From Chloroflexota bacterium (lineage in GTDB: Bacteria > Chloroflexota > Anaerolineae > JAAEKA01), in NCBI GenBank assembly GCA_034717495.1, contig JAYELL010000060.1, positions 1-55,888 on the forward strand: a stretch of DNA of 55,888 nt. Direction: 5' to 3'. How positions within the stretch are numbered: position 1 is the stretch's first letter; each line of letters starts with the position of its first letter. The translations under genes and the position numbers were made by a program. The notes under the pieces are model-generated. The model did no database searches. It worked only from the letters and a program-made list of their open reading frames with translations, and had not been told where the DNA came from. Shown here piece by piece: positions 17,527-51,967 of the stretch.

Positions 17527-17889
17527 ATGGAATATTTCATGTCATCTGTCAACGTTGATGTCACCCTGTATGGTTCACTTGCACAGTTTGCAGGAGGGAA
17601 ATACGTTGCCCAGAAAGTAGTAAAACTCAAGGCAAATGCAATCGTTCGGGATTTACTGGATTACTTTGGGATTGCCCACGACCAAAAGAGCTATTTGTTA
17701 ATCAACGCCGTTCTTTGCGACATGCCCGGCCTCCAGGCTTCTTTAGACGAGCCCTTGGAGGACGGTGACCATGTTGGTATCTTTTCGCTTCAGCACATGT
17801 GGCCCTACCAATATCGCGACGGGATTCGCATGTCCGAGACGCTGACAGAGACCTTGCGAAAACGCGGTGCGATGCACAACATCTACTGA
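17527..17889 (+). CDS. MoaD/ThiS-like beta-grasp protein lacking the C-terminal Gly-Gly
   Basis: A 120-residue protein with a ubiquitin-like core (VDVTLYGSLAQFAGG, IVRDLLDYFGI, LINAVLC, LEDGDHVGIF). In MoaD the chain ends right after the last strand in Gly-Gly. Here the chain runs about 30 residues further (MWPYQYRDGIRMSETL onward) and has no Gly-Gly, so it cannot be a normal sulfur donor by thiocarboxylate. It comes 35 bases before the aldehyde oxidoreductase gene. A structural or cofactor-delivery role for that enzyme is likely from context. Confidence 0.75.
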   Translation: MEYFMSSVNVDVTLYGSLAQFAGGKYVAQKVVKLKANAIVRDLLDYFGIAHDQKSYLLINAVLCDMPGLQASLDEPLEDGDHVGIFSLQHMWPYQYRDGIRMSETLTETLRKRGAMHNIY

Positions 17890-17924
17890 TCCAACCCAAT
17901 CATCAATCGAAAAAGGAGTGTATC

Positions 17925-30242: not shown

Positions 30243-30257
30243 CGCCTCTTGCGGCGC

Positions 30258-32123: not shown

Positions 32124-32135
32124 GGTTGATTTCGA

Positions 32136-32483
32136 CTAGGGTTCTTCTCGGCCTTCAGCTCTGAAGCTGATACTGTAGCCAATGACCCGGCTGAGCATCT
32201 CCGACAACAATTGGCGGCGGGAGATTTCGCCGCGAGCGGGGAGACCATCGGGCAGGACAACTACCAGGGGGCGATATTCCCGCTCGATCTGCTCCCGCAG
32301 ATCGGCGGACAGCCCGGCGTAGTAGTGCTCATGGTAGGCGATTATGCCGTCGGGGGCCTCGGCCATTTGGCGTCTGAGCAACTGTTCAGCCTCGGTCAGA
32401 TCGGAAGCCGCCAGCACGTGTGCGCCGGTCAGAGAGAAACCGGGCGCCAGGTCAGTTGTGGTGATGACAGTGAGTTGGGCCAT
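32136..32483 (-). CDS. atpF: V-type ATP synthase subunit F
   Basis: A 115-residue central-stalk subunit. The Rossmann-like receiver shape is seen in LTVITTTDLAPGFSLTGAHV and GIIAYHEHYYAGLSADLRE, and REYRPLVVVLPDG is the conserved strand before the C-terminal helix that regulates rotation. Placed between subunits C and A, as in many V-type operons. Confidence 0.9.
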   Translation of the reverse strand: MAQLTVITTTDLAPGFSLTGAHVLAASDLTEAEQLLRRQMAEAPDGIIAYHEHYYAGLSADLREQIEREYRPLVVVLPDGLPARGEISRRQLLSEMLSRVIGYSISFRAEGREEP

Positions 32484-32496
32484 ATGACGGTAATGG

Positions 32497-33558
32497 TCAA
32501 TCTCCGAGCAGTAAGTACGCCCTTGCCTCGTCTCGGCCGATGTTGCCGGCCACGGCCTCGGCGATCAGGCGCAGGTTGCGTACTTCAGCCCCTTTAGCGG
32601 CTAGAAAAGCGATGAGCACGCCCACACCAAGTGGATCCGCCTCTGAGAAGAGGCTCACCCGCCAGTGGAATAGCGTGCTCTCCCAGCCATGTTGCAGCGT
32701 TGTCAGGCGGCGGTCATCCCACTGTGCCAGGCTCTGCCGCCAGAACTCGCCCTCGCGTGCCGCATCCAGTACCATGTCCATCGCCTGGATGTCGGCGGCT
32801 GTACGCAAACGTTCCAGCGCTTCGGGCGAGAGCCAACCCCCGGCCAACCAGGGCGCCGGTCTCGCCAGCTCAACCTCGTGCAGGTCAAGGGCCAGTAGGA
32901 GATTGTGCAGGTCAAGGCTGCGGACCAGGTCGAGGCGCACAAGGTTACCGTCTGAGCCCGGGAGCGCCGCCGCCTGCCGGGTTGTGCTCTCAGCCCAGGC
33001 CAGGTCGAAGGCAGTGACGAGCTGGCGCAGGTTGGGGCCAGCGGGCAGCGCAGCCACCAGGCTTCCCGCCAGTTCATCGGTCGGAAGCCGCCATTGGGCC
33101 AAGAGGTCCACAAGACTGCGCGCCGTGGCCTGGCGCGCCAGCTCCGCCAGCATACCCTCGCTGAAGGGAGGTAAGGCAAACAGCCATGGAAGGATACGTT
33201 CGGGCCCGGCCCTGGCGCTGACGCCGCGTAGGAGAACAACGATGTTGTGACGATGGTACGGGGCCAGTAGTATGCCCAGAGCAGGGGCGATGGTTTCGCC
33301 GCCGAAGGCAGCTATGCGCCGCAGGATGGCGCCGTGATCGATCTGCACGGCGCGCAAGATTGCATCCAGGCCGGCCGATGTGACCAGGGATTGCTCGAGG
33401 GCGTCGTGGTATTGACTCTGATCAACTTGGCCAATGAGGGCTTCGAGGTTGGGAGCCGCCAGCAGTTGCTCGAATTCTGTGCGCTGAAGCAGCCGACTGC
33501 GCATGGCTCGAAGCCGGGCGTTAACGTATTCATAGCCAACGTCAATCCCGGCGCTCAT
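32497..33558 (-). CDS. atpC: V-type ATP synthase subunit C (AC39-like)
   Basis: A 353-residue subunit that joins the central stalk to the membrane ring. The N-terminal YEYVNARLRAMRSRLLQRTEFEQL and the internal LLRGVSARAGPERILPWLF segments fit the V0D/AC39 family, made of helical repeats with three similar lobes. The start overlaps the end of subunit E by 17 bases. Confidence 0.88.
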   Translation of the reverse strand: MSAGIDVGYEYVNARLRAMRSRLLQRTEFEQLLAAPNLEALIGQVDQSQYHDALEQSLVTSAGLDAILRAVQIDHGAILRRIAAFGGETIAPALGILLAPYHRHNIVVLLRGVSARAGPERILPWLFALPPFSEGMLAELARQATARSLVDLLAQWRLPTDELAGSLVAALPAGPNLRQLVTAFDLAWAESTTRQAAALPGSDGNLVRLDLVRSLDLHNLLLALDLHEVELARPAPWLAGGWLSPEALERLRTAADIQAMDMVLDAAREGEFWRQSLAQWDDRRLTTLQHGWESTLFHWRVSLFSEADPLGVGVLIAFLAAKGAEVRNLRLIAEAVAGNIGRDEARAYLLLGD

Positions 33559-34171
33559 CGGGTGTCCTCCCGCCGGGCTGATCCTCGCTGAGCAGATCCG
33601 ACAGCAAAGGGCGCAGGTCGGGCAGGGAACGCTGCAGACGACTGTCCAGAGTGTTCTCTGTCACTACCCGAGCATTGACGCTGCGCACGATCACGCCGGG
33701 CGCTAGCCCTTCCTCTGTCTCGACTGCCTCGACGCGCTGCGGCTGGTCGTGGTGGGTGTCCAGGATGGCGCGGATGAGGTCGACGTCATCGGGATGGACC
33801 ACGACGATGGCCGGTTCATCGGTGTGTGCCAGCGCCTCGGCCGCCAACCTGGCAAGGATGTCCTCGTAATCGGGCCGTTGGCGGGCGGCTGCCAGGATCT
33901 CCTGGGCGCGGCGGACGGCCGCCAGGAACGCAGATTCCTGCACCTGCACCTGCTGTCGCTGGTTCTCCAGCTTGACGCGGTGGAGCCGCCTGGCTTCCTC
34001 CTGCTGGGCTGCGCGCTGGGCCTCGGCCAGGATGCGGGCCCGAGTCTGCGCGGCTCGCACCTCGGCAGCCTCCATGCGGGCCGCGTAGGTTTCTTCGGCC
34101 GCCTGCAGGATCGCCTCTGCCTCCTTCTCGGCATCGGCGGCGATGATTTCGAGGATATCCTTCAGCGCCAT
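33542..34171 (-). CDS. atpE: V-type ATP synthase subunit E
   Basis: A 209-residue peripheral-stalk subunit. A long charged N-terminal coiled coil (DAEKEAEAILQAAEETYAAR to about residue 85) is followed by the globular head-binding domain (LAAEALAHTDEPAIVVVHPDD, VNARVVTENTLDSRLQRSLPDLRP). The last 30 residues are extra and rather hydrophilic. It pairs with the H/G-type subunit encoded upstream to form the stator. Confidence 0.9.
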   Translation of the reverse strand: MALKDILEIIAADAEKEAEAILQAAEETYAARMEAAEVRAAQTRARILAEAQRAAQQEEARRLHRVKLENQRQQVQVQESAFLAAVRRAQEILAAARQRPDYEDILARLAAEALAHTDEPAIVVVHPDDVDLIRAILDTHHDQPQRVEAVETEEGLAPGVIVRSVNARVVTENTLDSRLQRSLPDLRPLLSDLLSEDQPGGRTPDERRD

Positions 34172-34187
34172 CGCATCAGCCCCCGCC

Positions 34188-34406
34188 TCATCCCAGCAAT
34201 AGCAGGATCATGGCGGCGACGGCGAAGCCGAGAATGACCATGGTCTCGGGGATGGCTACGAGCAAAATGATACGACCGGCCAGTTCCGGCTTCTCGGCGA
34301 TGGTCCCGGCGCCTGCCGAGCCGATGCGGGCCTGGGCGTGACCCGTACCGAGGGCTGTGAGGCCCACGGCCAGTGCGGCGCCAATGGCAATGAGTCCGAC
34401 TTCCAT
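34188..34406 (-). CDS. atpK: V-type ATP synthase subunit K (rotor ring, c-like)
   Basis: A 72-residue two-helix proteolipid. Helix 1 is VGLIAIGAALAVGLTALG and helix 2 is LLVAIPETMVILGFAVAAMI, with the ion-binding Glu in the PET motif. It is the simple two-helix type, unlike the four-helix K of eukaryotic V-ATPases. I chose the ATG at 34406 because AGGAGG lies about 9 bases upstream; a longer opening at 34439 adds 11 residues. Whether H+ or Na+ is carried is not decided by what I can see. Confidence 0.9.
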   Translation of the reverse strand: MEVGLIAIGAALAVGLTALGTGHAQARIGSAGAGTIAEKPELAGRIILLVAIPETMVILGFAVAAMILLLLG

Positions 34407-34435
34407 AAGTAATACCTCCTGAGGTGTCTGAAGAT

Positions 34436-36406
34436 TCATAGTGATGATAGACCTGTGGAACCGGTTGGTCCGGGAACCTGAGCAGCGGCGGCGGTTCCTG
34501 GCTGGCCGATGTCTGGTTCTGTAGATGCGAGGCCGAACGGCTGGAAGGGTTTCCCTCCGTCCTCATAAAATTTGGAGAAGAACTCGACGTAATGCAAGCG
34601 CAAGGCGTGAATGGAGGGGCTGAACGCGCCCAAGGCGATGTTGAGAGCGTGGAATAGCAGGGCGATGATCACACCCACCCAGACCACTCCAACGCGGCTG
34701 GCCATCTCATTGCCCACCAGAGCGAGATAGACCGAGGCCAGGCCGATGGCGGCCAGTCGCAGGTAGGACAGGATGTTACCTACCACGCCCAGTAACTCCA
34801 CCGGGGCCATGAGCGCGCCCAGCGGGCCCATCCCACGGATCAGCAGCACCAGCCCTACCAGCACGACCACCAGGCCAGGGGTGGTCCAGCCGGATGGCAA
34901 CTGCTGCGCCGCTACACCTGCGAGCAAGAACAAGCCACAAAGGCCTACCAGCATCCCTGCGCGCTCCCAGAGCTTGTCGGTATGATGGGCGCACCAGGCG
35001 CTCCAGACGCCCAGCACCAGCCCTAATGTCACATGCACTGCGCCTATGGCAAGGGCGAAAATGAGCAGCGGCGCCAGGGCGTCGGGCGAAGAACGCTCGA
35101 GCCAGAGGGGCTGCAGGCCCAAAGCGTGGCCGAGCGAGCCGAAAAACTCACCGAACACCAGCCCCCAGACGATGCTCCAGCCCGCCCCCATCATCAGGAA
35201 GGCCGTCACGTCCCGCAGGCTGCTGCCTTTATCGCTACGGTAATGAACAAATGCGGCGATCAGCAGGATGACCAGGCCGTAGCCAATATCGCCCAGCATC
35301 AGCCCGAAGAACAGGGGCATGAACAACGCCATCCAGGCAGTGGGGTCCAGGCTACCGGCCCGGGGTAATGCCAGCAGTCGGATGAAGAATTCGTAGGGGC
35401 GGGCGACGGATTGGTTCTCCAGCAGCACCGGAGCTGTCGAAGCCTCCTCTTGGGACGGCGGCAACTCCTGGATGGCCAACTGGTCGGGCAAGCGATTTTC
35501 GAGGGCAGCGACCACTGGCACCAGTTCACGTTGAGGCACCCAGCCGATCAGTACAAAGGCATGGTCGGTTTCGCCCAGATGCCTGCGGGCGCGCAACTGC
35601 TCCAGGCGTCGGGCCAGGGCATGGCGAGCGCCCAGCCAGCGCCGCCGATGCCGCTCGGCCGCTTGCTGCAACTGCACATCCACCTGCTCCAATTCGCCTG
35701 GGATCCCCTCCAAACGACGCTGGATGCGGCCCAGCGCATCCTGGAACGGGACGTCCTGCAGCGATTCCGGCAACCTCACCTGGCTGACTTGCACCTGGCC
35801 CAGCAGTGCCTGCACCTGACCCGCGACTCGCTGGGGTACGACCAGGATGGCGCCGATACGATCGGGGTCGACTTGATCGTACACCAATTCGTATTCCTGC
35901 CCGGCAATTGCCTCGACCTCCTCGGCCAGCAGTTCGATGGCCGGACTATAGCGCCGTTGGACCAGCAAGGCGATGGTTTCATACCCCTGCAGTTTCGTCA
36001 GTTCCGGCGTGAGCCGCAAGAGCTTGCGAACGGTCTCGGCGTAGCTGGGCAGGATCTCGGCGTCGTTGCGCAGGGCTTCCCGGCGCCGAGCCAGTTCCTC
36101 GATGGTGGGCGCGTGGCGATCCAGGTCCGCTTGCAGGCCGGCGCACAGGTCCGTCTCCACCCAGGGAATGGGATGTTCTTCGGGGAGCCTGGGCAGCAGC
36201 GCCAGCAACGCGTCCAGGCGCGCGAGCAGGTAGCTGAGAGTCTCCAGCTCTCGCTGCTCGTCAGCCAGCGCGTAGGGTCGTAGCTCAGTGTGCACCTGCT
36301 GCCCATCGATGAGCTGAACACAAGCCAGCACTTGTACAGCCTGGAGCGTCTTGTCGAGGTCCCGCTTGTGGCCAATGACCTGCAAGCGTGTCATGGGAAT
36401 GAGCAT
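34436..36406 (-). CDS. atpI: V-type ATP synthase subunit I (a-subunit, stator channel)
   Basis: A 656-residue membrane subunit. Residues 1 to about 340 form the cytosolic arm with long coiled coils. From about residue 345 there are seven to eight transmembrane helices, beginning MPLFFGLMLGDIGYGL, the typical first helix. The essential Arg of the ion half-channel should be in the SYLRLAAIGLASVYLA helix. The C-terminal 35 residues (Pro/Gly/Ser-rich, ending QVPGPTGSTGLSSL) are not family sequence. It follows the H/G subunit by 7 bases. Confidence 0.93.
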   Translation of the reverse strand: MLIPMTRLQVIGHKRDLDKTLQAVQVLACVQLIDGQQVHTELRPYALADEQRELETLSYLLARLDALLALLPRLPEEHPIPWVETDLCAGLQADLDRHAPTIEELARRREALRNDAEILPSYAETVRKLLRLTPELTKLQGYETIALLVQRRYSPAIELLAEEVEAIAGQEYELVYDQVDPDRIGAILVVPQRVAGQVQALLGQVQVSQVRLPESLQDVPFQDALGRIQRRLEGIPGELEQVDVQLQQAAERHRRRWLGARHALARRLEQLRARRHLGETDHAFVLIGWVPQRELVPVVAALENRLPDQLAIQELPPSQEEASTAPVLLENQSVARPYEFFIRLLALPRAGSLDPTAWMALFMPLFFGLMLGDIGYGLVILLIAAFVHYRSDKGSSLRDVTAFLMMGAGWSIVWGLVFGEFFGSLGHALGLQPLWLERSSPDALAPLLIFALAIGAVHVTLGLVLGVWSAWCAHHTDKLWERAGMLVGLCGLFLLAGVAAQQLPSGWTTPGLVVVLVGLVLLIRGMGPLGALMAPVELLGVVGNILSYLRLAAIGLASVYLALVGNEMASRVGVVWVGVIIALLFHALNIALGAFSPSIHALRLHYVEFFSKFYEDGGKPFQPFGLASTEPDIGQPGTAAAAQVPGPTGSTGLSSL

Positions 36407-36413
36407 AGGTGAT

Positions 36414-36728
36414 TCAGGGCAAGAGGTACTCTACGATCCTGGCCGCCGTTCTATCAATTCGCTGCGATAGATGATGGCGCAGGAATTCTGTTTGCTCCTG
36501 ACCCTGCCTCCTCAGAACTGCGGCCTCCTCTTCTGCCGCGGCAAGGATAAAACGCCTGCGACCTTCAGCCTCCCGTTCCGCCTCGGCTTGCGCCTGCACC
36601 ACCAGGTGCTCGGCAGCGTGTTCGGCCTCCTGACGGCGATCCGCAGCTCGCTCTCGGGCTGCGGCGACGCGGTCTGCAGCTGCTTGTTCGGCAGCGTGAA
36701 TGCTGGAGACGGGATCAGACGACATCAT
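36414..36728 (-). CDS. atpH: V-type ATP synthase peripheral-stalk subunit H/G-like
   Basis: A 104-residue, almost wholly helical charged protein rich in Ala, Glu and Arg (AAARERAADRRQEAEHAAEH, QAEAEREAEGRRRF), as expected of the G/H peripheral stalk that pairs with subunit E. The ATG at 36728 lies inside the last codons of subunit D (14-base overlap); the frame open further upstream is only the antisense shadow of D. Identification rests on position and coiled-coil character. Confidence 0.75.
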   Translation of the reverse strand: MMSSDPVSSIHAAEQAAADRVAAARERAADRRQEAEHAAEHLVVQAQAEAEREAEGRRRFILAAAEEEAAVLRRQGQEQTEFLRHHLSQRIDRTAARIVEYLLP

Positions 36729-37392
36729 TGCTGTTGCTCCAGGTTTGACCGGAGGAAAGGCGGTTACGGGTCCGGCGTTCTTTGACGCGCTTGAGCCGGT
36801 AGACCTCCTCCCGCTCACGCTCGGCCAGGCGCAATCCGATGGTCCGCAACTGGTGGTGCAGACGGGGCAGGAGAATGTGCTCCAGTGCGTTGACGCGACG
36901 GGTTGTCTGGCGAATGGCTTCGGCCAGACGGCGCAGACGTAGCTCGCTGTTGGCGACCTTAAGCAATACTTCGAGCTCCGATTCGAAAGCACTCACCACC
37001 GCTTCCAGGCGAGGCGTGCTGTCGGTGGGACCGTACGGACGATCCTGGGGTGGAGAAGCCAGCCTTTGCGGTTCGATGCGCAGGACGTTTACGCCCATCA
37101 CGCGGGTACTCGTCACGGGCACATTGAGGGGATCGAGTCCAGCCAGGGCCAGGCTGCCCAGCACCTCAGGACCGTCCAACGCCTGGGCGAGGGCAAGGCT
37201 ACGACGGGCGGCAGCGGCCACTTCGTCCAGAGTCTCTACTTCCTCCATGACGGCATCTGCGCTGCTCATCAACTCCTCCATGAGGACGTTTCGTTTTTGC
37301 CGTAGCAGTTCTTCAGCTTGAGCAGTCAGCTCGAGCTGCGCCCGCTTCTGATTCAATTCCGAACGCGTTGCGGTGACTTGTTCCAGGGGCAT
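36715..37392 (-). CDS. atpD: V-type ATP synthase subunit D
   Basis: A 225-residue central-shaft subunit with long N- and C-terminal helices (ATRSELNQKRAQLELTAQAE, RRVNALEHILLPRLHHQLRTI) and the RVKERR segment near the end. It is the first ATPase gene of the operon here, whereas subunit D is most often last after B. A universal stress protein gene lies 139 bases upstream. Confidence 0.92.
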   Translation of the reverse strand: MPLEQVTATRSELNQKRAQLELTAQAEELLRQKRNVLMEELMSSADAVMEEVETLDEVAAAARRSLALAQALDGPEVLGSLALAGLDPLNVPVTSTRVMGVNVLRIEPQRLASPPQDRPYGPTDSTPRLEAVVSAFESELEVLLKVANSELRLRRLAEAIRQTTRRVNALEHILLPRLHHQLRTIGLRLAEREREEVYRLKRVKERRTRNRLSSGQTWSNSNDVV

Positions 37393-41541: not shown

Positions 41542-42447
41542 CTACCCGAGACTCTTTTCTTCAGCCCTTTCCAGCTTTTCGACGATCCTCTCTACGTCTG
41601 ACTTGGCGTTCGCGGCTTCCATCGGCATTCCTTTTAGCCAGGACATGGCAATCGCGGGGTCTTCGTGAATGACCCCAATCGCCTCAATTCCTTGCTCCGC
41701 CAGTTTTTCCCTCATATACCCTTCCATTTCCTCATCTCTGACCCGGTTTAGTATCACCAAAACGCCTTTGATCGTCGCTTCTCTGAAGATGCGATTGGCC
41801 CACTCGACCAGGTCAGGGGTTTCCAAATGCTTCGTAGCTGGCAATCCGCCCGCCTTGATCTGGTTTACCATGTCTCTCATGTTGGCTGCCATCTGAATCG
41901 CCGCTGTGGTCGGATCGACGACGACCAATGCCCAATCCAAACCGGTTACAGCGCCCCGCGCCGAGTCCTCAAATCCCGCCTTGAAGTCTACCAGCGTGAC
42001 AGGGGTTTCACCGTTCTGATGTATCCTCAGGTCCCTGGCGATCTTGGAAACAGGACCGTCGCATCCAGCGCCTGGACCTTGATCGCCGATCTTTCCAGCC
42101 GTCAGGAGCAATATCCCTCCGTCGTTTTGACTGTAGTGTCTGTCGGGAAGTTGATCCAGGGAGATATCTGCCCCCGGCAAAGGCGTTGGATCATCCACAG
42201 GGCAGGTGACAGATCCTCCGCTGAACACCACGCCCCCGAAATAGTCCAGGAGCTGGGTTGGAGCCGTTTCCATGCCCAAGGCCTGGTGCAGCCCCACATT
42301 GGTCGAATCGGCGTCCACCACACAGACTTCGTAACCGCTGTCTCTGAGCGCCATGGCCAGCAGAACCAGGGCTGTGCTCTTGCCACTCCCGCCCTTTCCA
42401 AACACGCCAATTCTCCTGCCAGTGAGCGCTTTCTTGTGTTCCATCAC
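41542..42447 (-). CDS. MinD/CooC-like P-loop ATPase
   Basis: A 301-residue deviant-Walker ATPase: GKGGSGKST at residues 17-25 followed by the VVDADSTNVGLHQALG switch. Most of the sequence resembles CooC-type nickel-insertion factors of CO dehydrogenase. A CooC would have a C-x-C nickel-binding pair around the middle; I do not see one here, only single cysteines (TCPVDD, GAGCDGP). The family and neighbours (a CooT-like and a His-tailed protein) favour metal-cofactor maturation. The start is the GTG at 42447 or the ATG at 42444, after AAGGAG. Confidence 0.85.
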   Translation of the reverse strand: MMEHKKALTGRRIGVFGKGGSGKSTALVLLAMALRDSGYEVCVVDADSTNVGLHQALGMETAPTQLLDYFGGVVFSGGSVTCPVDDPTPLPGADISLDQLPDRHYSQNDGGILLLTAGKIGDQGPGAGCDGPVSKIARDLRIHQNGETPVTLVDFKAGFEDSARGAVTGLDWALVVVDPTTAAIQMAANMRDMVNQIKAGGLPATKHLETPDLVEWANRIFREATIKGVLVILNRVRDEEMEGYMREKLAEQGIEAIGVIHEDPAIAMSWLKGMPMEAANAKSDVERIVEKLERAEEKSLG

Positions 42448-42559
42448 CGTTTTCTCTCCTTATTCCATCCTGCACGATGGGATGGTTCCTCACGATATAC
42501 TTGATCCTCCCTGGATTCGGTGAAGCGTCCAGACAATGTTCAAGACCGCACTCGCTGTG

Positions 42560-42778
42560 TCAGTGGGCGTGGTGATGCTGTTGCTCTGCCGGACCGCCCA
42601 GCTTGTCCAGAGCGCTCGCCAACGCTTCGTTGGCGAGGACCACTGCTTCCGCAGCAGCCAGGATGTCCGGCGCGGCAACGCCGGCCTTGTCTGCCCAGCG
42701 GCGGAACTCGGCAGCATGTTCGTCGTTGTGCTCGATCCAATGGGGAATCAACACTCGCAGTTTTTCCTGGTCATTCAT
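42560..42778 (-). CDS. Small helical protein with His-rich tail, in the CooT-CooC-like cluster
   Basis: A 72-residue helical protein (EKLRVLIPHWIEHNDEHAAEF, LAAAEAVVLANEALASALDKL) ending in AEQQHHHAH. Two conserved His-type sites (HWIEHNDEH) and the terminal His run suggest metal binding, plausibly nickel given the neighbours. Its ATG overlaps the stop of the CooT-like gene. I do not know a characterised family for it, though such short proteins accompany CooT in other anaerobes. Confidence 0.75.
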   Translation of the reverse strand: MNDQEKLRVLIPHWIEHNDEHAAEFRRWADKAGVAAPDILAAAEAVVLANEALASALDKLGGPAEQQHHHAH

Positions 42779-42972
42779 GGCGTTTTCTCGGGTTCAGTCA
42801 AGGACTCAAGCATCACCCGGTGCTTGATCAGGTCTATCTCGCGGATGGTAGCTTGCACCACCTGGGGTGCCTCGAACAGCCTACTCAGCCGCACTCCTTC
42901 CGGTACAAGCTGCACCTTCAGCACGTCCTGCATGATCTCTTCTTCGTTCAAGTACACGGTTGCCTGGCACAT
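42775..42972 (-). CDS. cooT: CooT-family nickel-binding protein
   Basis: A 65-residue protein with the CooT signature: Cys2 at the very start (MCQATVYLNEEEI) and a beta-rich core (QLVPEGVRLSRLFEA, ATIREIDLIKHRVMLE). In CooT, Cys2 at the N-terminus binds nickel at the dimer interface. The ATG at 42972 is preceded by GAGGAGG. It heads a set with the His-tailed protein and the MinD/CooC-like ATPase. No CO dehydrogenase gene is in the window. Confidence 0.82.
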   Translation of the reverse strand: MCQATVYLNEEEIMQDVLKVQLVPEGVRLSRLFEAPQVVQATIREIDLIKHRVMLESLTEPEKTP

Positions 42973-43300: not shown

Positions 43301-43678
43301 TTAGAAGGTAAAGGTCATCGTCGCTCCTTCCGCGTCCATCAGGAAGGGCGGCGCCTTTTCGATGAGGATCCGCTCATCTCGCAGGTCCTTGGGGTTGATC
43401 CCCTTGTTCTCCAGGGCCAGCTCGCAGAGCACGACCTTGCCGCCCAGATCCATGATGGTGTCGAACAGTCCGACCGGATCGGGCAGGCCCTTTGGCTGGC
43501 CGATCTTTTCCAACTCGCCTCTGAGGGCCCATCTGGCTCCTGCCGGACAGAAGAAAACGTGGACCTCATCATCGATGGCGAGGCCGGAGGAGGCAAAGAT
43601 CAGCGTTGGCAGGATGTTTGCGGGTGTGTCGCCATTGCAGACAATGACCATTTTCTGGCTACCGTTTTGTTCAGACAT
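43301..43678 (-). CDS. DsrE/DsrF-like (DsrE2-type) sulfurtransferase-fold protein
   Basis: A 125-residue protein of the DsrE family (MVIVCNGDTPANILPTLIFAS, DEVHVFFCPAGARWALR). Cysteines at CNGD, FFCPAG and VLCELAL are candidates for persulfide transfer; the VLCELAL cysteine matches the conserved site of peroxiredoxin-like DsrE2 proteins. An AAAGGAG site precedes the ATG. It is near the rhodanese and Qmo-like genes and probably relays sulfane sulfur in the cytoplasm. Confidence 0.82.
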   Translation of the reverse strand: MSEQNGSQKMVIVCNGDTPANILPTLIFASSGLAIDDEVHVFFCPAGARWALRGELEKIGQPKGLPDPVGLFDTIMDLGGKVVLCELALENKGINPKDLRDERILIEKAPPFLMDAEGATMTFTF

Positions 43679-43801: not shown

Positions 43802-45043
43802 CTATTCCGGGCTATTCGCCATGACTTGCTGGACTGATTGAAGAAACTTCACCAATTCCGAAAGAAACCAGTTGACGTCGAGTCCATCGCATTGGTCTGT
43901 CAACTGCGAGAGCCAGGCGGCGGCTGGCACGGCGTATTCTTCCGGCCAGGGTGCCGTCTCCACTGGCGCGCCGGGGAGAGCCTTCGGTTGCTCCATAGTT
44001 TCTGCAAGCACACCCGCTGCCGTTCCCTCGATGGGGTAATCACGCCAATTTCGTGAGTCATCGATCCGAAAAGGGACAATCTGTGGATCAAGTGTCCAGG
44101 TAGACATCCCGTGCAGACTCACCTGGGCGTCGTAGCCCATCATGTTGAGAATTGTCGCCACCTGCGGACTGGTGAATCCCAGATAGCAGCAGATGACAAT
44201 GGGCTGGTCGGTCGGCAGGCGCGAGAGGTTTTCCGGCTCAAAAACCTGCCAACGAGGGCTGTTTACCGCCCCAGGAATATGCCCTTTGGCATAGTCATCC
44301 GGCCACTGCAGACTGAGCACAAAGGGATCGTTTGCTGCGTCGCCGTCCATCAATAGGTCTTCCAAATCACAGGGACAGATGCCGGCGTTGGTATAATGCT
44401 CTGAGGCCAGGTAAACATCGGCTGCTGCCGTGATAATCTCTTCCGGCGTGCTTCCGGCCACGTTCAGCTGTGGATAACGGCCTGTGGGATCGGCAGTGTG
44501 TGTCTGGGTGTCCATGGCGTGTTCGCAGACACATGCTGGGTCAAAGTGGTCAGGAATGGCGACCTGATTTTTGGTCCAGCTCTCAAAGCCATACGCCAGA
44601 TCCAGGGTGTCATAGCCCAGTAAATTCAGAATGGCGGAAATCTGAGCGGAATGGACGCAGTGGTTGCAATAGAGAACCACCAACTGATCTTCGGGAATCT
44701 GGGCCCGCAGTTGGGCCACGTCGGTGATTTCATCCCAGGGTAGATTGATTGCTCCAGGGATGTGCCCCCGTTCATACTCAGCACGGGTCTGTACACTCAC
44801 TACCAGTGGATCGTTTTCAGGGTCGCCATCGTGCAGCAGGTCGTACAATTGGTCGACGTCCATGTGGTATTGGTGATATTCATCGGGAAAATAGTCGGCT
44901 GCCGCCAGCCGAATTGTCTCCAGATCGGGGGGAGGGTCGTTGGCCAACGCTACAGCGCAGGCCTCGCCGCTCAACACAAGCAGCCCGCCGATCACAACAA
45001 GTATTCCCAGCTTCTTCATCAGCCTCGTGATTACAGGTTTCAT
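43802..45043 (-). CDS. Exported protein with two rhodanese domains
   Basis: A 413-residue protein with a Sec signal (residues 1 to about 35, VVIGGLLVLSGEACAVALA). Two rhodanese homology domains follow. The first ends in the active-site loop LYCNHCVHSA and the second in ICCYLGFTSP. Thus each has a Cys in the catalytic position, in unusual loops (a second Cys in the first, a preceding Cys in the second). AGGAGG precedes the ATG at 45043. Acting outside the membrane, it probably moves sulfane sulfur to or from the Qmo-like complex. Confidence 0.85.
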   Translation of the reverse strand: MKPVITRLMKKLGILVVIGGLLVLSGEACAVALANDPPPDLETIRLAAADYFPDEYHQYHMDVDQLYDLLHDGDPENDPLVVSVQTRAEYERGHIPGAINLPWDEITDVAQLRAQIPEDQLVVLYCNHCVHSAQISAILNLLGYDTLDLAYGFESWTKNQVAIPDHFDPACVCEHAMDTQTHTADPTGRYPQLNVAGSTPEEIITAAADVYLASEHYTNAGICPCDLEDLLMDGDAANDPFVLSLQWPDDYAKGHIPGAVNSPRWQVFEPENLSRLPTDQPIVICCYLGFTSPQVATILNMMGYDAQVSLHGMSTWTLDPQIVPFRIDDSRNWRDYPIEGTAAGVLAETMEQPKALPGAPVETAPWPEEYAVPAAAWLSQLTDQCDGLDVNWFLSELVKFLQSVQQVMANSPE

Positions 45044-45116
45044 CTGAAGCCTCCTGGCGCAATGATGCGCAGTTATCGTGTGGCTACCTGACTTGACCTG
45101 GCTTTCGCCGGCAGAG

Positions 45117-46280
45117 TCAAGCCGCAACAGATGCCATCTCGGTCTCTGCCGCCTGCCGGACCAACGCCTTCTCCTTCACCGCCTGGAAATAGATAGCGCA
45201 TGGCCGGTAGGCCAGGTGCGACCATTTACCGAAGGGCACTTCCAGCACCAGCATCGGCACCAGAATTGCCAGATGGATGACATAAATGTAGTAAGTCCCT
45301 AAAGGCAGTCCCATATAGCGGAAGATATGCACCAGGATGCCGGACACTGTGGTCAGAAACAGCAGGATCAGGAACATCCAGTCACTTGGGTGCGAGAAGC
45401 GGTGCATCTCGGAATCCTTCTTGATCCGTCCCCAAAACATCACTGCTGTTCCCCACAGCAAAGCGATGGTCGCCAGGTAGCCGATCCACCGCTGGGGATG
45501 CCAGATGGGATAGATTTCATCGGTTTGGAACCATTTCAGGAAGCCCACGATCAATACAAGCATGATGCCGTAGCCGACCACCAGAATCCAGTGATTGCGC
45601 CAGAGAGGTTTCTTCAGGAAGTCCTTTTCCGGGTCCTCATCGCATTTGGACCACCGGCTCTGGGTCACTAGTTGGTAGATCAGTTGCCAGGCTTCAGTGA
45701 TGTACAGCGAGAAAGGTATCTTGAGGTCCGTGCCCCGGCGCAGGGTGAAGATGTACATGCGAAAGACGTTGGACAGCAGGAAAAAAGCAAGCCCAAGAAA
45801 CATGATCCAGTCGAGAACATGGACAACGTGAGCGGGAGCGAAGGTGTTCAGTTCAACGCGATCGGTGACGACGGGGCCGTGAAAGAGAGCGAACGCCACC
45901 ACGACCAGGAGACCCACGAACAATACGGAACCGATCTCCCAGTACTTTGAAGTATAGAATCTGCGGGCAAGTCCGGTCCAGTCGTATTGGGCCGTCAGCC
46001 AGCGCCGCATGGTCATCTGCGCTTCGCCCGGCTCGGCCTGCCTGGGGCAGGTCTCGGAGCATTCGCCACAGTAGTAACATAGCCAGGGGTCGGTGCTCTG
46101 CAGCAGGCGATCACGCAACCCCAACTGCACCATGCGCAGATTGTTGCGCGGGAATGGCGTCGCATCGGTGGCCAGCGGGCAAATGGCGGTGCAGTTGCCG
46201 CAGTTGAAACAGGATTCGATGTTGACCTCGCCGTATTTCTTGAGTTCCAACAGCAGGTTTGGATCTGCGCGATTTTTCAT
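45117..46280 (-). CDS. qmoC: QmoC-like membrane subunit (HdrC/HdrE fusion)
   Basis: A 387-residue protein. The N-terminal HdrC-like part has two [4Fe-4S] motifs (CFNCGNCTAICP from Cys24 and CYYCGECSETCP). It then has about six transmembrane helices of the NarI/HdrE type, with His residues (VVHVLDW, HRFSHPSDW, HIFRYMG, VIHLAIL) suited to heme b and quinone binding. This is the arrangement of QmoC in sulfate reducers. The ATG at 46280 overlaps the stop of the small winged-helix gene. It would move electrons between the cytoplasmic HdrA-like subunits and the quinone pool. Confidence 0.88.
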   Translation of the reverse strand: MKNRADPNLLLELKKYGEVNIESCFNCGNCTAICPLATDATPFPRNNLRMVQLGLRDRLLQSTDPWLCYYCGECSETCPRQAEPGEAQMTMRRWLTAQYDWTGLARRFYTSKYWEIGSVLFVGLLVVVAFALFHGPVVTDRVELNTFAPAHVVHVLDWIMFLGLAFFLLSNVFRMYIFTLRRGTDLKIPFSLYITEAWQLIYQLVTQSRWSKCDEDPEKDFLKKPLWRNHWILVVGYGIMLVLIVGFLKWFQTDEIYPIWHPQRWIGYLATIALLWGTAVMFWGRIKKDSEMHRFSHPSDWMFLILLFLTTVSGILVHIFRYMGLPLGTYYIYVIHLAILVPMLVLEVPFGKWSHLAYRPCAIYFQAVKEKALVRQAAETEMASVAA

Positions 46281-46591
46281 CGCTTCTCCTCCTTGGCCAG
46301 GCCATAAAGGTAGTACTCGTAGTCCTCGTCCAGGCCTGTTTCAACGATCTGGCCGTACTTCTTCATCGCGGCAACGTGCCATAAGACCTCTGGGGCAGAG
46401 AGACCGACCTGATCGGCCAATTGGGGCACGGAGTGGGGCCCGGCTTGCAGCGCCCGCCGCAGCGATTTTCGAATACCCTGCTGCTGCTTGAGCATGGCCT
46501 GGGCTTCCTTTACCTGCTCGCGATGCTGCTTGCGCAGATCGGCCAGCATTTCGCTTCGTTTTTTCGCTTCTGTTCTGTCTCTTGTCGTCAT
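46277..46591 (-). CDS. Small winged-helix-like protein inside the Qmo operon
   Basis: A 104-residue protein. A charged coiled coil (RTEAKKRSEMLADLRKQHRE) leads into a helix-turn-helix (SVPQLADQVGLSAPEVLWHV) and a final helix-strand (KKYGQIVETGLDEDYEYYLY), resembling ArsR-type winged helices. It overlaps both neighbours by ATGA, so its translation is coupled to the HdrA-like and QmoC-like genes. Either an operon-specific regulator or a subunit that uses the fold for protein contacts. Confidence 0.7.
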   Translation of the reverse strand: MTTRDRTEAKKRSEMLADLRKQHREQVKEAQAMLKQQQGIRKSLRRALQAGPHSVPQLADQVGLSAPEVLWHVAAMKKYGQIVETGLDEDYEYYLYGLAKEEKR

Positions 46592-48678
46592 GCCACACCC
46601 TCCAGGACAGGGATCTCCGCCGTGATGGCGTCCACCATGGCTTGGTATTCGTCCAATCGCCAGCCTTGCACATCGATGGCCTGATTGGGACAGACGCTGA
46701 CGCACACGCCGCAGCCGTTGCAGTTGGCGGGAGTCACTACCGCCCGCTGGGCGCTGGCGCCATTTCTTGAGAAGGTTTCCAGGTGTATAGCGCCATCCTG
46801 CGGGCAGATACGCACACAGTCGCCGCTGCCCTGGCAACGGTCAGCATCCACGTGGGCCACGTAGGGCTCCAGTTCGACCTTCCCTTTGTTGAGCAGGATC
46901 GCCACCTTGGAGGCGGCTGCTTCCGCGGCGGCGCAGCTTTCTTGAATGTTCATCGGTCCCTGGGCTGTCCCGGCCAGTACGATACCGTTCACAGCGGTCT
47001 CAACGGGCTGCAACTTGGGATGGACTTCCAGCAGGAAACGGTCGTTGCCCGGGGTGATGTTGAACGTTTCAATCAGGTCCTGTATCGGGTTGGGCATCAT
47101 TCCGACAGACAGCACGACCAGGTCCACCGGTAATTCGATTTCCTCGCCCCAGGTCAGGTGGTCCTTAACCTTGACCAACAAGGGGTGTTGCGAGCCATTC
47201 TCGGCCTGATATACCTCGGGAATCTCCTCGGCGAAGTAGCGCAGGAAGGTGACCTGGTTCTGGCTGGCCTGGGTGTAGTAGTCCTCTTGCCCGCGGCCGT
47301 AGGTTCGAATGTCCTCATAGATGTCGTATGTGTGTACGTCCGGGTAGCGTTCCCGGATCTGATTGGCCGCGCTCAACGTGGCCGTGCAGCACACACGTGA
47401 GCAGTAATCGTTGACGTGTCCGTCCGGCTGGGGTTGGTGCACCCCTTCGATCTGGCGGCTGCCTACGCAGTGGATCATGGCGATGCTGCGCACGGGATGA
47501 CCGTTCCATTCCAGCTCGCCGCCGGTGGGGCCATCGGGCGCCAGCAGGCGCTCCAACTGGGGCAGGGTGATCACTTCGGGGAATTCGCCGTAGCCCATTT
47601 CGCCAGGGAATGGCTCGTAGGGACGGAATCCGGTGGCAACCACTACGGCCCCCGCGTTGATGTCGAATTCGAAGGGGGTGTCATCCAGGCGGATATCACC
47701 ATTGTGGCTGGACTTCAGACATTCCTCGCAGCGGGTGCAGTGTTCCCAGTCAATCACCGGGCTGGCCGGGTAGCAGCCCTTGTAAGGTCGGTAGATGGCT
47801 TTACGGGTCTGGAGGCCATAGTTGAATTCATCCGCTACTTCCACCGGGCAGGCGGCTATGGCCTGCGCCACGGCATCGAAATTTCCATCAATACCACGCG
47901 GCTGCTGGCGGATGTGGACCTGGAAATTGCCCACGTAGCCTTTGGCTTCCACTACCTCCGCACCGGTATGGATGGTGATATTGGGTTCAGCCAGCACGCG
48001 CTCGATCAAACGGTGCAGCAGGGTGCGGGCATCTTCGCCGGTCGGGAAGACATGCTGCCACTGGGCCATACGTCCGCCCAGGAAGTGGCTCTTCTCCACC
48101 AGGGTGACTTTCAGCCCCGAGCGGGAAATGTCCAGCGCGGCCCGCAGTCCGGCCACCCCTCCCCCAATGACCAGAGCGTGTTTTTCTGCTTGGAGCTGCA
48201 CCGGTTCCAGCGGTCTCATCAGGCGGGCTTTGGCAATCCCGGCCGACATCATGCGCACTGCTTTCTCAGTAGCTTCATTCGGGCAATCGTGATGCACCCA
48301 ACTATCCTGTTCTCTCAGGCCGACGTGATAATACAGGTAGGGGTTTAGCCCCGCCCGCTCCACCGTTTGGCGGAAAGTCTGCTCGTGCAGGAAGATGGAA
48401 CAGGCTCCCACCACGATCCGGTTGACTCCCTTCTCTCTGATGTCATCGGTGATCAGCTTCTGCCCTGGATCGGAACACATGAACATGTCGCTGTGGGAGG
48501 TCACAACGTTGGGGAGTTCCCCCAAAGCCCTGGCAACCTGCTCGCATCGCACCACGTCGCCGATATTGCCGCCACAGTTGCAGACGTATACGCCGACGCG
48601 CACTTCTTCTTTCTGTTCCTGGGATGAGTCCTGCAAGGGCACCTTTTCTTCTTGGGTCGGGTTGGATTGTTCAGGCAT
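46588..48678 (-). CDS. qmoB: HdrA-like flavoprotein (QmoB-type)
   Basis: A 696-residue FAD and iron-sulfur protein. The N-terminal HdrA domain (RVGVYVCNCGGNIGDVV, MCSDPGQKLI) is followed by the FAD site VIGGGVAGLRAALDI and by VVVATGFRPYEPFP. A cluster-like motif HCTRCEECLKSSHNGDI lacks the fourth Cys. The C-terminal ferredoxin pair is CQGSGDCVRICP and CNGCGVCVSVCP; in the first, the second Cys is Ser. It overlaps the QmoA-like gene by 8 bases. Family is clear; whether it bifurcates electrons is not known. Confidence 0.88.
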   Translation of the reverse strand: MPEQSNPTQEEKVPLQDSSQEQKEEVRVGVYVCNCGGNIGDVVRCEQVARALGELPNVVTSHSDMFMCSDPGQKLITDDIREKGVNRIVVGACSIFLHEQTFRQTVERAGLNPYLYYHVGLREQDSWVHHDCPNEATEKAVRMMSAGIAKARLMRPLEPVQLQAEKHALVIGGGVAGLRAALDISRSGLKVTLVEKSHFLGGRMAQWQHVFPTGEDARTLLHRLIERVLAEPNITIHTGAEVVEAKGYVGNFQVHIRQQPRGIDGNFDAVAQAIAACPVEVADEFNYGLQTRKAIYRPYKGCYPASPVIDWEHCTRCEECLKSSHNGDIRLDDTPFEFDINAGAVVVATGFRPYEPFPGEMGYGEFPEVITLPQLERLLAPDGPTGGELEWNGHPVRSIAMIHCVGSRQIEGVHQPQPDGHVNDYCSRVCCTATLSAANQIRERYPDVHTYDIYEDIRTYGRGQEDYYTQASQNQVTFLRYFAEEIPEVYQAENGSQHPLLVKVKDHLTWGEEIELPVDLVVLSVGMMPNPIQDLIETFNITPGNDRFLLEVHPKLQPVETAVNGIVLAGTAQGPMNIQESCAAAEAAASKVAILLNKGKVELEPYVAHVDADRCQGSGDCVRICPQDGAIHLETFSRNGASAQRAVVTPANCNGCGVCVSVCPNQAIDVQGWRLDEYQAMVDAITAEIPVLEGVA

Positions 48679-50014
48679 AGACCGGGCTCCTCTCTTCCTG
48701 AGCCGCAACGGGTGCGGCCTGCCGCCCGTTGTGCGTATGCATATAGGCAGCAGCTTCCGAGGCGGCGGCTCCCGCGGTTACAATACTGTCCACGATGTCC
48801 ATCGGTCCGGTTGCCGACCCGGTGGCGAAGATGCCTGCCTGTTCGGTCACTGCAGGCGAAATGTTGTAGTCTGGAATCTGGATGAAACCGTCCTCCGCGA
48901 CAGGGACCTGATAGAGGGGCTGCGTGTTATAGCCAGGCAACATGCCTACCGAGAGCACCACCAGATCATGCCTGCGCTCGGCCACGTGCGAGAACTCGTC
49001 TATCAACTCTACCCGCACGATGGGATTCTGGTCCTCATCCTCGGTGATGCGAGCCACCTTGCCCTTGACGAACTCGATCCCCATGGCTTTGGCGTTCTGG
49101 TAGAACTGCTCGTAGCCCTTGCCGAAGGCGCGGATGTCCATGTAATAGATGGTGATGTCGGCCAGGGGCAACGCACCCGAGAGCAACATGGCCTGCTTGA
49201 TGGCATACATGCAGCATATCCGCGAGCAGTAGGACACACCCAAGCTCAGGTCGCGGGAGCCCGCACATTGCACATAGGCGATGGAGTCGGGCAATTTGCC
49301 ATCCGACGGCCGCAGCACCCGCCCGTAGGGGCCGGTGGGGGCCAGCAGGCGTTCCATCATCAATCCATCGATCACGTTACGAAGATTGCCTGCCCCGTAC
49401 TCCTTCTTGGCATCGTAGGGGGTCACTTCATAGCCGGTGGCCAGGATGATAGTCTCTGCCTCGATCTGGAGGGTTTGCGGCTGCTGGAAAAAATCGATGG
49501 CGTCTGTGGGACAGGCTTTGAGACACTTGCCACAGAAGATGCAATGGTCGATGTCAAGCAGGGCAGTCTGCGGCACGGCGGTGGCGAAGGGTACATAGAC
49601 CACCCGGTGGGCCGTACGACCGTATTCATTGGCTTCGTCCGGCAGATCGAGGGGGCAGACCAGTTCGCAGGAGCGGCAGCCGGTGCAGTCCTCTTCCCGC
49701 ACATAACGGGGCTTCCGCAGGACCTGGGCGGAAAATCCCTTCCCGTTGCGTGTTACCGACTGCACTTCGCTGTAGGTCAACAGTTGGATGTTGTCGTGGT
49801 GGGCCACGGCCGCCATCTTGGGGGTGGTGATGCAGCTACAGCAATCCAGTGTGGGAAACACCTTGCTCAAGCCGATCATCTTGCCCCCGATGCTGGGATC
49901 CCGCTCCACCAGGGCGACCTGATAGCCCTGATCGGCCAGGTCCAGCGAGGCCTGCATGCCGGCGATGCCACCTCCGACAACCAGGGAATCCACGTGTAGC
50001 TTGTTTGAGGTCAT
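48671..50014 (-). CDS. qmoA: HdrA-like flavoprotein (QmoA-type)
   Basis: A 447-residue protein. FAD-binding GGGIAGMQASLDLADQGYQ at the start, the CCSC cluster in LDCCSCITTPKMAAV, two complete [4Fe-4S] motifs (CTGCRSCELVCP and CIFCGKCLKACP), and a C-terminal GIFATGSATGPMDIVDS flavin part. It lacks the long N-terminal domain of the larger HdrA, like QmoA. The start at 50014 was chosen at the family N-terminus. It lies 26 bases after the MvhD-like gene. Confidence 0.88.
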   Translation of the reverse strand: MTSNKLHVDSLVVGGGIAGMQASLDLADQGYQVALVERDPSIGGKMIGLSKVFPTLDCCSCITTPKMAAVAHHDNIQLLTYSEVQSVTRNGKGFSAQVLRKPRYVREEDCTGCRSCELVCPLDLPDEANEYGRTAHRVVYVPFATAVPQTALLDIDHCIFCGKCLKACPTDAIDFFQQPQTLQIEAETIILATGYEVTPYDAKKEYGAGNLRNVIDGLMMERLLAPTGPYGRVLRPSDGKLPDSIAYVQCAGSRDLSLGVSYCSRICCMYAIKQAMLLSGALPLADITIYYMDIRAFGKGYEQFYQNAKAMGIEFVKGKVARITEDEDQNPIVRVELIDEFSHVAERRHDLVVLSVGMLPGYNTQPLYQVPVAEDGFIQIPDYNISPAVTEQAGIFATGSATGPMDIVDSIVTAGAAASEAAAYMHTHNGRQAAPVAAQEERSPVYA

Positions 50015-50040: not shown

Positions 50041-50484
50041 TCACGCCTGTAGGGCTGTTGTGGCCGGCAGTGAACGGGGCACCGGCCCAAGCTCCTCGAG
50101 CAACTGGTTCATCTTTTCGATCTCTTCGAGGAAAGGACGGACGCACACAGTGCAGATAGCCGTCAGACGCAAGCGGCGCGGGTCCAGATTGCGCTCTTTC
50201 ATCAGTTCATAAGTGCTGTTGACCATGGTCGCCGTCCGTTCCGGCGCGCCTTTGTAAGGGCTGTCGGTGCCGCTGTACATCACGAGTATGCCGTCGAAGC
50301 CGCGCTCGAAAGCCCGCATATAAAAGCTCTCTGGAAACATGGCTGCACTCATGACCGGCAGGATGAAAGTGTTAGGTGGATATTCCAGGTGAGCCTGCCC
50401 GGTAGAGTCTGCTCCCCGATAGCCGCCCGACAGGGTGGCCAGGATCAGAATCTTGGGTGTTCCGTTTTCCGTTTTTGTTGCCAT
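50041..50484 (-). CDS. MvhD-family protein lacking the usual iron-sulfur cysteines
   Basis: A 147-residue homologue of MvhD (F420-non-reducing hydrogenase delta subunit), the small [2Fe-2S] protein that feeds electrons to HdrA. Family stretches are clear: GADSTGQAHLEYPPN, FERGFDGILVM, LDPRRLRLTAI and ELGPVP. The five canonical cysteines are gone: the N-terminal CNWC-type site reads ATLSGG, the PCSG site reads PVMSAA, and GCHPGDCHY reads YSGTDSPYK. The only Cys pair is ICTVC, at a different place. The ATG at 50484 has GAGG upstream. Confidence 0.82.
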   Translation of the reverse strand: MATKTENGTPKILILATLSGGYRGADSTGQAHLEYPPNTFILPVMSAAMFPESFYMRAFERGFDGILVMYSGTDSPYKGAPERTATMVNSTYELMKERNLDPRRLRLTAICTVCVRPFLEEIEKMNQLLEELGPVPRSLPATTALQA

Positions 50485-50568
50485 GGGTAGTACCTCAATT
50501 CGATAATGCGCAAAACGCCGAAATGCAGCATGAAATATCACGTTTTACGCATTACGTTTTCCGTTCGA

Positions 50569-50829
50569 CTACTTCTGGCGCAGAATAAAAAGCCGGTCGT
50601 ACGCGCCTTCATCGACAAAGCCCAGAAATTCGTTGCCGGTCTTCTTACACCAGCGGCTCAGGTTATTCCGGGTGTCCTGTGAGCCGGACCAGATTTCCAA
50701 TACTTCGCCGACGTTTACGCCGCCGATGCCCTTTTTGGCTTCCAGCAGGGGACCAGGACAGGCGCTGCTGCGGGCGTCGACAACTTTGGCGGATTGAATG
50801 CTCGCGAGATCTTCTACTCCACTCGTCAT
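50569..50829 (-). CDS. tusA: TusA/SirA-like sulfur carrier protein
   Basis: An 86-residue TusA-fold protein with the persulfide Cys24 in DARSSACPGPLLEAKKG, the family CPxP motif. The remainder (LEIWSGSQDTRNNLSRWCKKTGNEF) is the normal second half. Its ATG overlaps the DUF1858 stop by ATGA. It should carry sulfane sulfur among the rhodanese, DsrE-like and Hdr-type proteins of this operon. Confidence 0.92.
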   Translation of the reverse strand: MTSGVEDLASIQSAKVVDARSSACPGPLLEAKKGIGGVNVGEVLEIWSGSQDTRNNLSRWCKKTGNEFLGFVDEGAYDRLFILRQK

Positions 50830-51062
50830 TGGGTTTCTCCTTGGTTGAATGGTGGCTGGAGCGTTGCCTGCTCCAGTTCGTCGAGTAACGAATCGATGTC
50901 CAGGTGATAAGCATGTGCCACCTCGTCAAGCGTACAGAATGGCGCCATCGGACATCCCACACATGCCGTGCGGCGATGGAGGAAAACCAGCAGCGTCTGC
51001 GGCCAACGGTCCATTACGTCGGCTACCCTGCTGTCAGCCCTCAGATGGGAACAGTCTATCAT
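50826..51062 (-). CDS. DUF1858-domain protein with CxxC
   Basis: A 78-residue protein (VADVMDRWPQTLLVFLHRRTACVGCPMAPFCTLDEVAHAY). Cys34, Cys37 and Cys44 form the CxxCx6C pattern usual for this domain, which is found in hydrid-cluster-type or ferric-reductase-like operons. It is the first gene of the sulfur operon. I chose the ATG at 51062 because AGAGG lies 8 bases upstream; a GTG at 51071 is possible but less suited. The role is unknown; redox or metal binding by the cysteines is likely. Confidence 0.82.
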   Translation of the reverse strand: MIDCSHLRADSRVADVMDRWPQTLLVFLHRRTACVGCPMAPFCTLDEVAHAYHLDIDSLLDELEQATLQPPFNQGETQ

Positions 51063-51108
51063 GCCAGACACCTCTGTTTACCAGCATAGACCATGTGCAG
51101 GCTGCTGT

Positions 51109-51235: not shown

Positions 51236-51967
51236 CTAGCGATCGCCCCTGTTACTGTTTTTCTGCGTCGTCAATCCCTCGGAAATCGCTACCAGCCCGT
51301 GCATTTGCAGAATGACGATCCGCTTCCAGCCCAGCTCAACCAATCCCTGGTGCTCCCAGCGGTTGAGAACGCGGCTGGCTGTAAACTGCGTCGTGCCCGT
51401 CATTTCTGCCAGATCTTCGCGAGACAGTGGCAGGTTGATCAGCACGCCGGTCTCCACACGTTGCCCAGCCTGTCGCGCCAGCCGTAACAAGGTCTGGGCC
51501 ACTCGCTGTTCCACGCACTCGGTGGTCACCTCGTGGTAACGACGCTGCCATCCCTGGCATTGCTCTACCATCACCTGCAAGGCATTCAAAGCGATTTGTG
51601 GATAGCGCTGCAGCAAGTCTCGCAGCGTGTTTTTCTCCCATCCCAGGGCCGAACAGGCATCGACCGCCTGCAGGGCTGCCGGGTACTCTGCCCTATCGGC
51701 CAGGGCGGCAATCCCAAAGCACCTGCCAGGGTCGAGAAAGCGCACGAGCACCTGATGGCCATCCGGCGTCAACTGTGTTAACTTCGCCCGTCCCTCCAGC
51801 AGCAGATAAGTGGAGGTCGCGGGATCACCTTGATGATAGAAGAAACCCTTGGGGCCAACCTGGGTGCGCCAGCCTGCCTGATACACAGCTTCCAGTGTGG
51901 AATCAGACAGGTTTTGAAAGAGTATGGATCCGGCGAAAGCCTTGGAAACATCTGATGGCAACGACAT
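51236..51967 (-). CDS. Crp/Fnr-family transcriptional regulator
   Basis: A 243-residue regulator: cyclic-nucleotide-binding-type beta barrel (KGFFYHQGDPATSTYLLLEG, FLDPGRCFG), dimer helix, and a winged helix with LSREDLAEMTGTTQFTASRVLNRWEHQGLV at the C-terminus. The N-terminal Fe-S cysteines of true FNR are absent, so it is unlikely to sense oxygen in that way. It lies just upstream of the sulfur operon in the same direction and is the obvious candidate to control it. The effector is unknown. Confidence 0.92.
   Translation of the reverse strand: MSLPSDVSKAFAGSILFQNLSDSTLEAVYQAGWRTQVGPKGFFYHQGDPATSTYLLLEGRAKLTQLTPDGHQVLVRFLDPGRCFGIAALADRAEYPAALQAVDACSALGWEKNTLRDLLQRYPQIALNALQVMVEQCQGWQRRYHEVTTECVEQRVAQTLLRLARQAGQRVETGVLINLPLSREDLAEMTGTTQFTASRVLNRWEHQGLVELGWKRIVILQMHGLVAISEGLTTQKNSNRGDR

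Follow-up and report, generated by a model that had tools for sequence, protein, structure and literature searches.

An MvhD-fold protein that has lost its cluster cysteines

What role is left to an MvhD-type subunit once the cysteines that bind its [2Fe-2S] cluster have gone? The question is raised by a gene on the minus strand of a 55,888-nucleotide stretch of DNA from a Chloroflexota bacterium (the whole stretch is hereafter called the window). The gene, at positions 50041..50484, encodes an MvhD/FlpD-fold protein of 147 amino acids in which the five cluster cysteines are replaced and a CxxC motif is present at C111/C114. Its frame is intact, running from an ATG at 50484 to a stop codon that ends at 50041. 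A first-pass annotation had described a protein with intact family landmarks and none of the canonical cluster cysteines, and translation and alignment bear this out. The landmarks GAD, YPPN, LDPRRLRL and ELGP are all present, and the Pfam FlpD profile (PF02662) is matched over its whole length at 67.4 bits (cut-off 22.3). In an alignment with canonical members, T17, G20, S46, S71 and S75 occupy the five canonical cysteine columns, and C111 and C114, within AICTVC, are the only cysteines of the protein. The conserved cysteines that characterize MvhD as a [2Fe-2S] electron carrier are absent and, because only two cysteines are encoded, the protein cannot hold a canonical MvhD cluster, in agreement with the earlier view that it is no longer such a carrier. 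We also considered ICTVC as a shifted canonical ligand. This was ruled out: the motif aligns with the SASEG stretch of canonical MvhD, where there is no ligand column, and the CxxC lies off the canonical ligand positions as first supposed. The same genome encodes three further FlpD proteins, each with the full cysteine set.

An AlphaFold model of the window protein, built with 66 related sequences, has a pLDDT of 87 and a strand-helix order that occurs four times. Four solved MvhD chains were its only Foldseek matches with E below 0.001 (query-normalised TM 0.81-0.84); both profile and fold place the protein in the FlpD/MvhD family. The lost ligand positions follow strands 1-3, and the CxxC (C111-T-V-C114, codons at 50143..50154 on the minus strand, from translation and structure model) follows strand 4, in the loop directly before helix 4. 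The parallel fold puts all of these loops on one edge, so that in the model the CxxC should lie on the edge of the ancestral cluster. Its position ahead of a helix N-terminus in the model would suit a redox-active CxxC.

The loss of every cofactor ligand might suggest that the gene is decaying or that the sequence is in error. However, the frame is undamaged, the operon is conserved, and dN/dS between the window gene and three relatives (L147, L148 and L006) is 0.05-0.12, with values of 0.04-0.18 among relatives; synonymous sites are near saturation and the ratios are rough, but they are low enough to rule out free decay. This selection pattern, together with six relatives from other genomes that share the ligand-less state, refutes a pseudogene or sequencing error, the probability of which we regard as negligible.

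The CxxC is common to a widespread branch

We searched for relatives in 400 genomes of the phylum and 396 genomes of the class, and we also scanned 84,980 species genomes. The IC[ST]VC motif was one of two seeds in the scan, which is therefore biased to CxxC members; the phylum and class searches, which used no motif seed, gave the same picture, and none of the searches selected for adjacency to tusA. Three states were found among the relatives: the canonical state (CNWC / MCSGR / GCHxxDCHY / SASEG), a sister branch B (STxxISD / PCSSG / AADGTDCxxxxxDC / AICSVC), and branch A, which holds the window protein. Branch B has near-invariant C3, C5, a new cysteine and the CxxC, with one identical pattern in 62 of 66 sequences. 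All 22 distinct full-length members of branch A carry IC[ST][VI]C in place of SASEG, and they differ in the canonical cysteines that they keep: C2, C4 and C5 (L012, L057), C2 and C4 (L010, L011), C3 and C5 (L055, L153, L154, L156, L157, L158), C5 alone (L152, L155), C3 alone (L008, L009, L151), or none of the five (the window protein, L006, L007, L147-L150). Total ligand loss together with a CxxC thus recurs in six other Chloroflexota genomes; one of these six relatives carries an extra N-terminal cysteine.

Every member found of branches A and B has the CxxC, the number of cluster cysteines varies, and none has the full set, as the first-pass annotation had anticipated for this clade. The branch is defined by the CxxC and not by ligand loss, and the sub-branch of the window lost its cluster cysteines piecemeal. 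Since the CxxC is common to the whole TusA-linked branch, it was present before the last ligands disappeared; it is not new in the window protein, as had been thought. The expectation that homologues from similar operons would all retain the CxxC holds for every one found, but the companion expectation that they would all be cysteine-less does not: all five are missing only from the closest group of the window protein, the rest of branch A retains between one and three of them, and branch B has C3, C5 and the new cysteine.

In a tree from which the eight cysteine columns were left out, A and B fall on one side of a branch with 99% support, A groups together with 98%, and B with 89%; because the alignment has no more than 120 columns, support for the inner forks is weak, and the tree program issued a warning that long branches meet. 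The combined branch spans more than a dozen phyla, with hosts among Chloroflexota, Bacteroidota, Actinomycetota, Acidobacteriota, Verrucomicrobiota, Armatimonadota, Thermodesulfobacteriota, Bacillota, Asgard-group archaea, Thermoproteota and others.

Two further observations were made among archaeal relatives. An MvhD-like domain that has neither cluster cysteines, nor CxxC, nor tusA follows an HdrA-like gene in Freyarchaeota/Jordarchaeum (L107:17237-17539, L111:17160-17513) and probably represents an independent loss. Lokiarchaeal FlpD frames (L112:2205-2585, L126:2327-2737) have in-frame TGA codons at two cluster-cysteine positions, which probably encode selenocysteine.

Operon and gene neighbourhood

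Gene context is the strongest clue to the role of the CxxC-type MvhD. In the window, all on the minus strand and in 5' to 3' order, a Crp/FNR-type regulator (51236..51967) is followed by a DUF1858 protein with a hybrid-cluster-associated redox-disulphide domain (50826..51071), by tusA (50569..50829), which the DUF1858 gene overlaps by 4 bases, and by the mvhD-like gene. Next come a qmoA-like HdrA flavoprotein (48671..50011), a qmoB-like HdrA protein (46588..48678), a small winged-helix (wHTH) protein that is conserved in the operon (46277..46591), a qmoC-like membrane subunit of the HdrC/cytochrome-b type (45117..46280; NCBIfam qmoC 204 bits, below the cut-off of 300), a tandem rhodanese protein (43802..45046) and a DsrE-family protein (43301..43678). 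The sulphur carrier TusA keeps its cysteine within SACPGP and is the only TusA found in its genome.

This arrangement is not peculiar to the window. We counted distinct loci for which 450 or more bases of upstream sequence were available: a tusA gene in the same orientation lies no more than 1.5 kb upstream of 86 of 88 CxxC-type genes, as against 0 of 48 canonical genes. Only L064 and L159 depart from this pattern, and L159 is split by a frameshift in its contig. Where the contig is long enough, qmoA, qmoB, wHTH and qmoC mostly follow the CxxC-type gene in that order, and a DsrE gene is near most of these loci. We propose two marks for the branch, the IC[ST][VI]C motif and a place directly between tusA and qmoA-qmoB-wHTH-qmoC, and the window gene shows both. 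The DUF1858 gene takes up the slot before tusA in which most relatives have DsrE, and none of the others among the 66 loci compared was found to have it.

The tusA/mvhD-like intergenic segment (50485-50568) contains an imperfect hairpin with a modest z of -1.7 and one arm that is unique in the genome; such a hairpin could serve in processing or attenuation, or mean nothing. Directly downstream of DsrE (41542-42972) are genes for a MinD/CooC-type ATPase and for CooT, of a CO dehydrogenase nickel accessory family. Elsewhere in the window, translations alone point to a minus-strand gene run resembling a V/A-type ATP synthase operon (28743-37392) and to an open reading frame (17799-19685) that is preceded by a small MoaD-like one and resembles a tungsten aldehyde ferredoxin oxidoreductase.

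The HdrA-like partner subunits

The QmoA of the window retains both inserted 4Fe-4S motifs with all inserted-ferredoxin cysteines, and the equivalents of K409 and E356 of HdrA. In the window QmoB the K409 position is occupied by Ser; elsewhere it is mostly His, and also Gln, Tyr or Phe. The inserted ferredoxin domain of QmoB is degenerate and its clusters are lost (most of branch B has a deletion of this domain), and the first C-terminal motif of QmoB is without the second cysteine. On these predicted sequences, loss of Fe-S sites is therefore not confined to the MvhD-like subunit. QmoB stops after the ferredoxin domain and has no C-terminal MvhD domain. In most branch B loci (e.g. L047:8187-10922) a GltD/NfnB-like NAD(P)H-FAD domain of ~450 amino acids is inserted between the two 4Fe-4S motifs of QmoA; the window QmoA is without it. 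This NAD(P)H-type insertion may mean that the wiring differs in other members.

A putative thiol/persulphide relay

In solved complexes the [2Fe-2S] cluster of MvhD lies near the flavin of HdrA (PMC12350162), and the FAD domain of HdrA is thioredoxin-reductase-like (PMC12054007). With a CxxC predicted on the ancestral cluster edge and a tusA gene adjoining, a thiol/persulphide relay is the simplest reading. We propose, with a probability of about 0.5, that the locus encodes a quinone-linked flavoprotein complex of the Qmo type that has TusA as its partner and uses a thiol/persulphide relay at the CxxC in place of the [2Fe-2S] relay of MvhD. The window protein would be the MvhD-fold subunit of this TusA-linked, quinone-interacting flavoprotein complex, and its CxxC, on the ancestral cluster edge, would act as a two-electron relay. 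DsrE and rhodanese would supply the sulphur bound to TusA, which would exchange with C111/C114, and these in turn with the FAD of QmoA, presumably by contact; electrons would then pass from the FAD through the Fe-S clusters of QmoA/QmoB to QmoC and the quinone pool. By general potentials, the oxidation of a thiol or persulphide runs downhill to menaquinone. Oxidation of TusA-bound sulphur in that direction seems thermodynamically easier than the reverse, and the direction proposed here is a tentative one.

A CxxC can also bind metal, which counts against a thiol relay. C111/C114 might hold a [2Fe-2S] or [4Fe-4S] cluster in a new location, or zinc, with further ligands supplied by a partner subunit or by a second copy of the protein in a homodimer, and the subunit would then still be an electron carrier. 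In branch B the near-invariant C3, C5, new cysteine and CxxC would suffice for a cluster, and the loops that carry them lie on one edge of the modelled fold; the five cysteines of this sister branch could form a relocated cluster, and the CxxC may originally have been a ligand. However, the CxxC stands alone in the window protein and its six relatives (save for the one extra N-terminal cysteine), which is too few ligands within one subunit, and for the window protein we consider metal binding rather unlikely. The first-pass annotation had suggested a scaffold or thiol protein that links TusA to the HdrA-like subunits. A conserved thiol protein with a genetic tie to tusA on one side and to the HdrA-like QmoA on the other agrees with this, but a pure scaffold, in which the MvhD fold serves only to keep the complex assembled and the CxxC forms a structural disulphide or otherwise has no catalytic role, is a poor fit to the invariant CxxC. 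Such docking would explain why fold and landmarks are retained after all cofactor ligands have gone; on the other hand, IC[ST][VI]C is invariant across distant phyla when other cysteines vary freely, and the strict TusA linkage suggests chemistry. Structural disulphides are, moreover, rarely needed by cytoplasmic proteins, and docking as the sole function strikes us as improbable.

A further possibility is that the CxxC accepts sulphane sulphur from TusA and, instead of relaying electrons, swings it as a persulphide to a different site in the complex. Such a role would suit a gene cluster that encodes three proteins of sulphur transfer, TusA, DsrE and rhodanese. The operon, however, has neither an HdrB-like nor any other obvious sulphur-oxidising site, and the matches to the CCG domain are on other contigs, so that we think a sulphur acceptor of this kind highly doubtful.

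The thiol/persulphide relay reading has a wider implication, which we put forward at somewhat less than even odds: that this is an undescribed and widespread complex of energy metabolism, in which a Qmo-type flavoprotein couples TusA-bound sulphur directly to the quinone pool and MvhD has been rebuilt from a one-electron [2Fe-2S] to a two-electron thiol/persulphide carrier. If this is true, an iron-sulphur carrier has been converted to thiol chemistry without losing its fold or its position within the complex, the intermediates are still alive, and TusA becomes a defined partner for a widespread Qmo-type complex. Annotation by homology would name the complex heterodisulphide reductase or Qmo despite the absence, in the window genome, of AprB and DsrB above cut-off and of HdrB in the cluster.

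Comparison with known systems

In the open PMC literature we found no account of a TusA-linked, cluster-less MvhD; this covers open texts only and is weak evidence of novelty. MvhD, VhuD and ElpC (PF02662; PDB 5odc_D, 7bkb_F, 8rvu_F) resemble the window protein in fold, landmarks and HdrA-like neighbours, but the latter has no cluster cysteines and has a CxxC in place of SASEG. Its neighbours are tusA and a membrane QmoC, whereas theirs are HdrB and a hydrogenase or formate dehydrogenase. In the sHdr system, Hdr-like proteins are fed by DsrE/TusA sulphur transferases (PMC4175335, PMC6067878). The window cluster likewise pairs Hdr-like proteins with DsrE/TusA, but where sHdr has HdrB (CCG) it encodes an MvhD-like subunit and a membrane QmoC; the HdrB-type CCG domain has 13 matches in the genome, none of them on the window's contig, and with no HdrB nearby the sHdr system was rejected. 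HdrA type III, with an inserted GltD domain, is described in methane-metabolising archaea, with TusA unmentioned (PMC12054007); most QmoA proteins of the sister operons are alike in this insertion, in contrast to that of the window.

The QmoABC complex of sulphate reducers likewise has two HdrA-like flavoproteins and a QmoC-type membrane subunit. An AprAB-linked Qmo was nevertheless rejected: the qmoC score falls below its cut-off, AprB gave no match above cut-off in the window genome (95.6% complete), and no MvhD domain is fused to QmoB. DsrB likewise had no match above cut-off in this genome. A genome with a TusA-type locus (L066) also has an aprB-aprA-qmoA-qmoB-qmoC operon (L195; named from predicted sequences). 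Alignment with genuine QmoB C-terminal MvhD domains (L195 and four similar ones from other genomes) sets the window protein apart: these domains keep four of the five cysteines, in the motifs CEND, RCLG, GCK and QCHF, and have no CxxC, and the window protein is therefore not a detached ordinary QmoB domain. In QmoABC, MvhD is fused to the C-terminus of QmoB, whereas in the window it is a separate MvhD-like protein linked with TusA.
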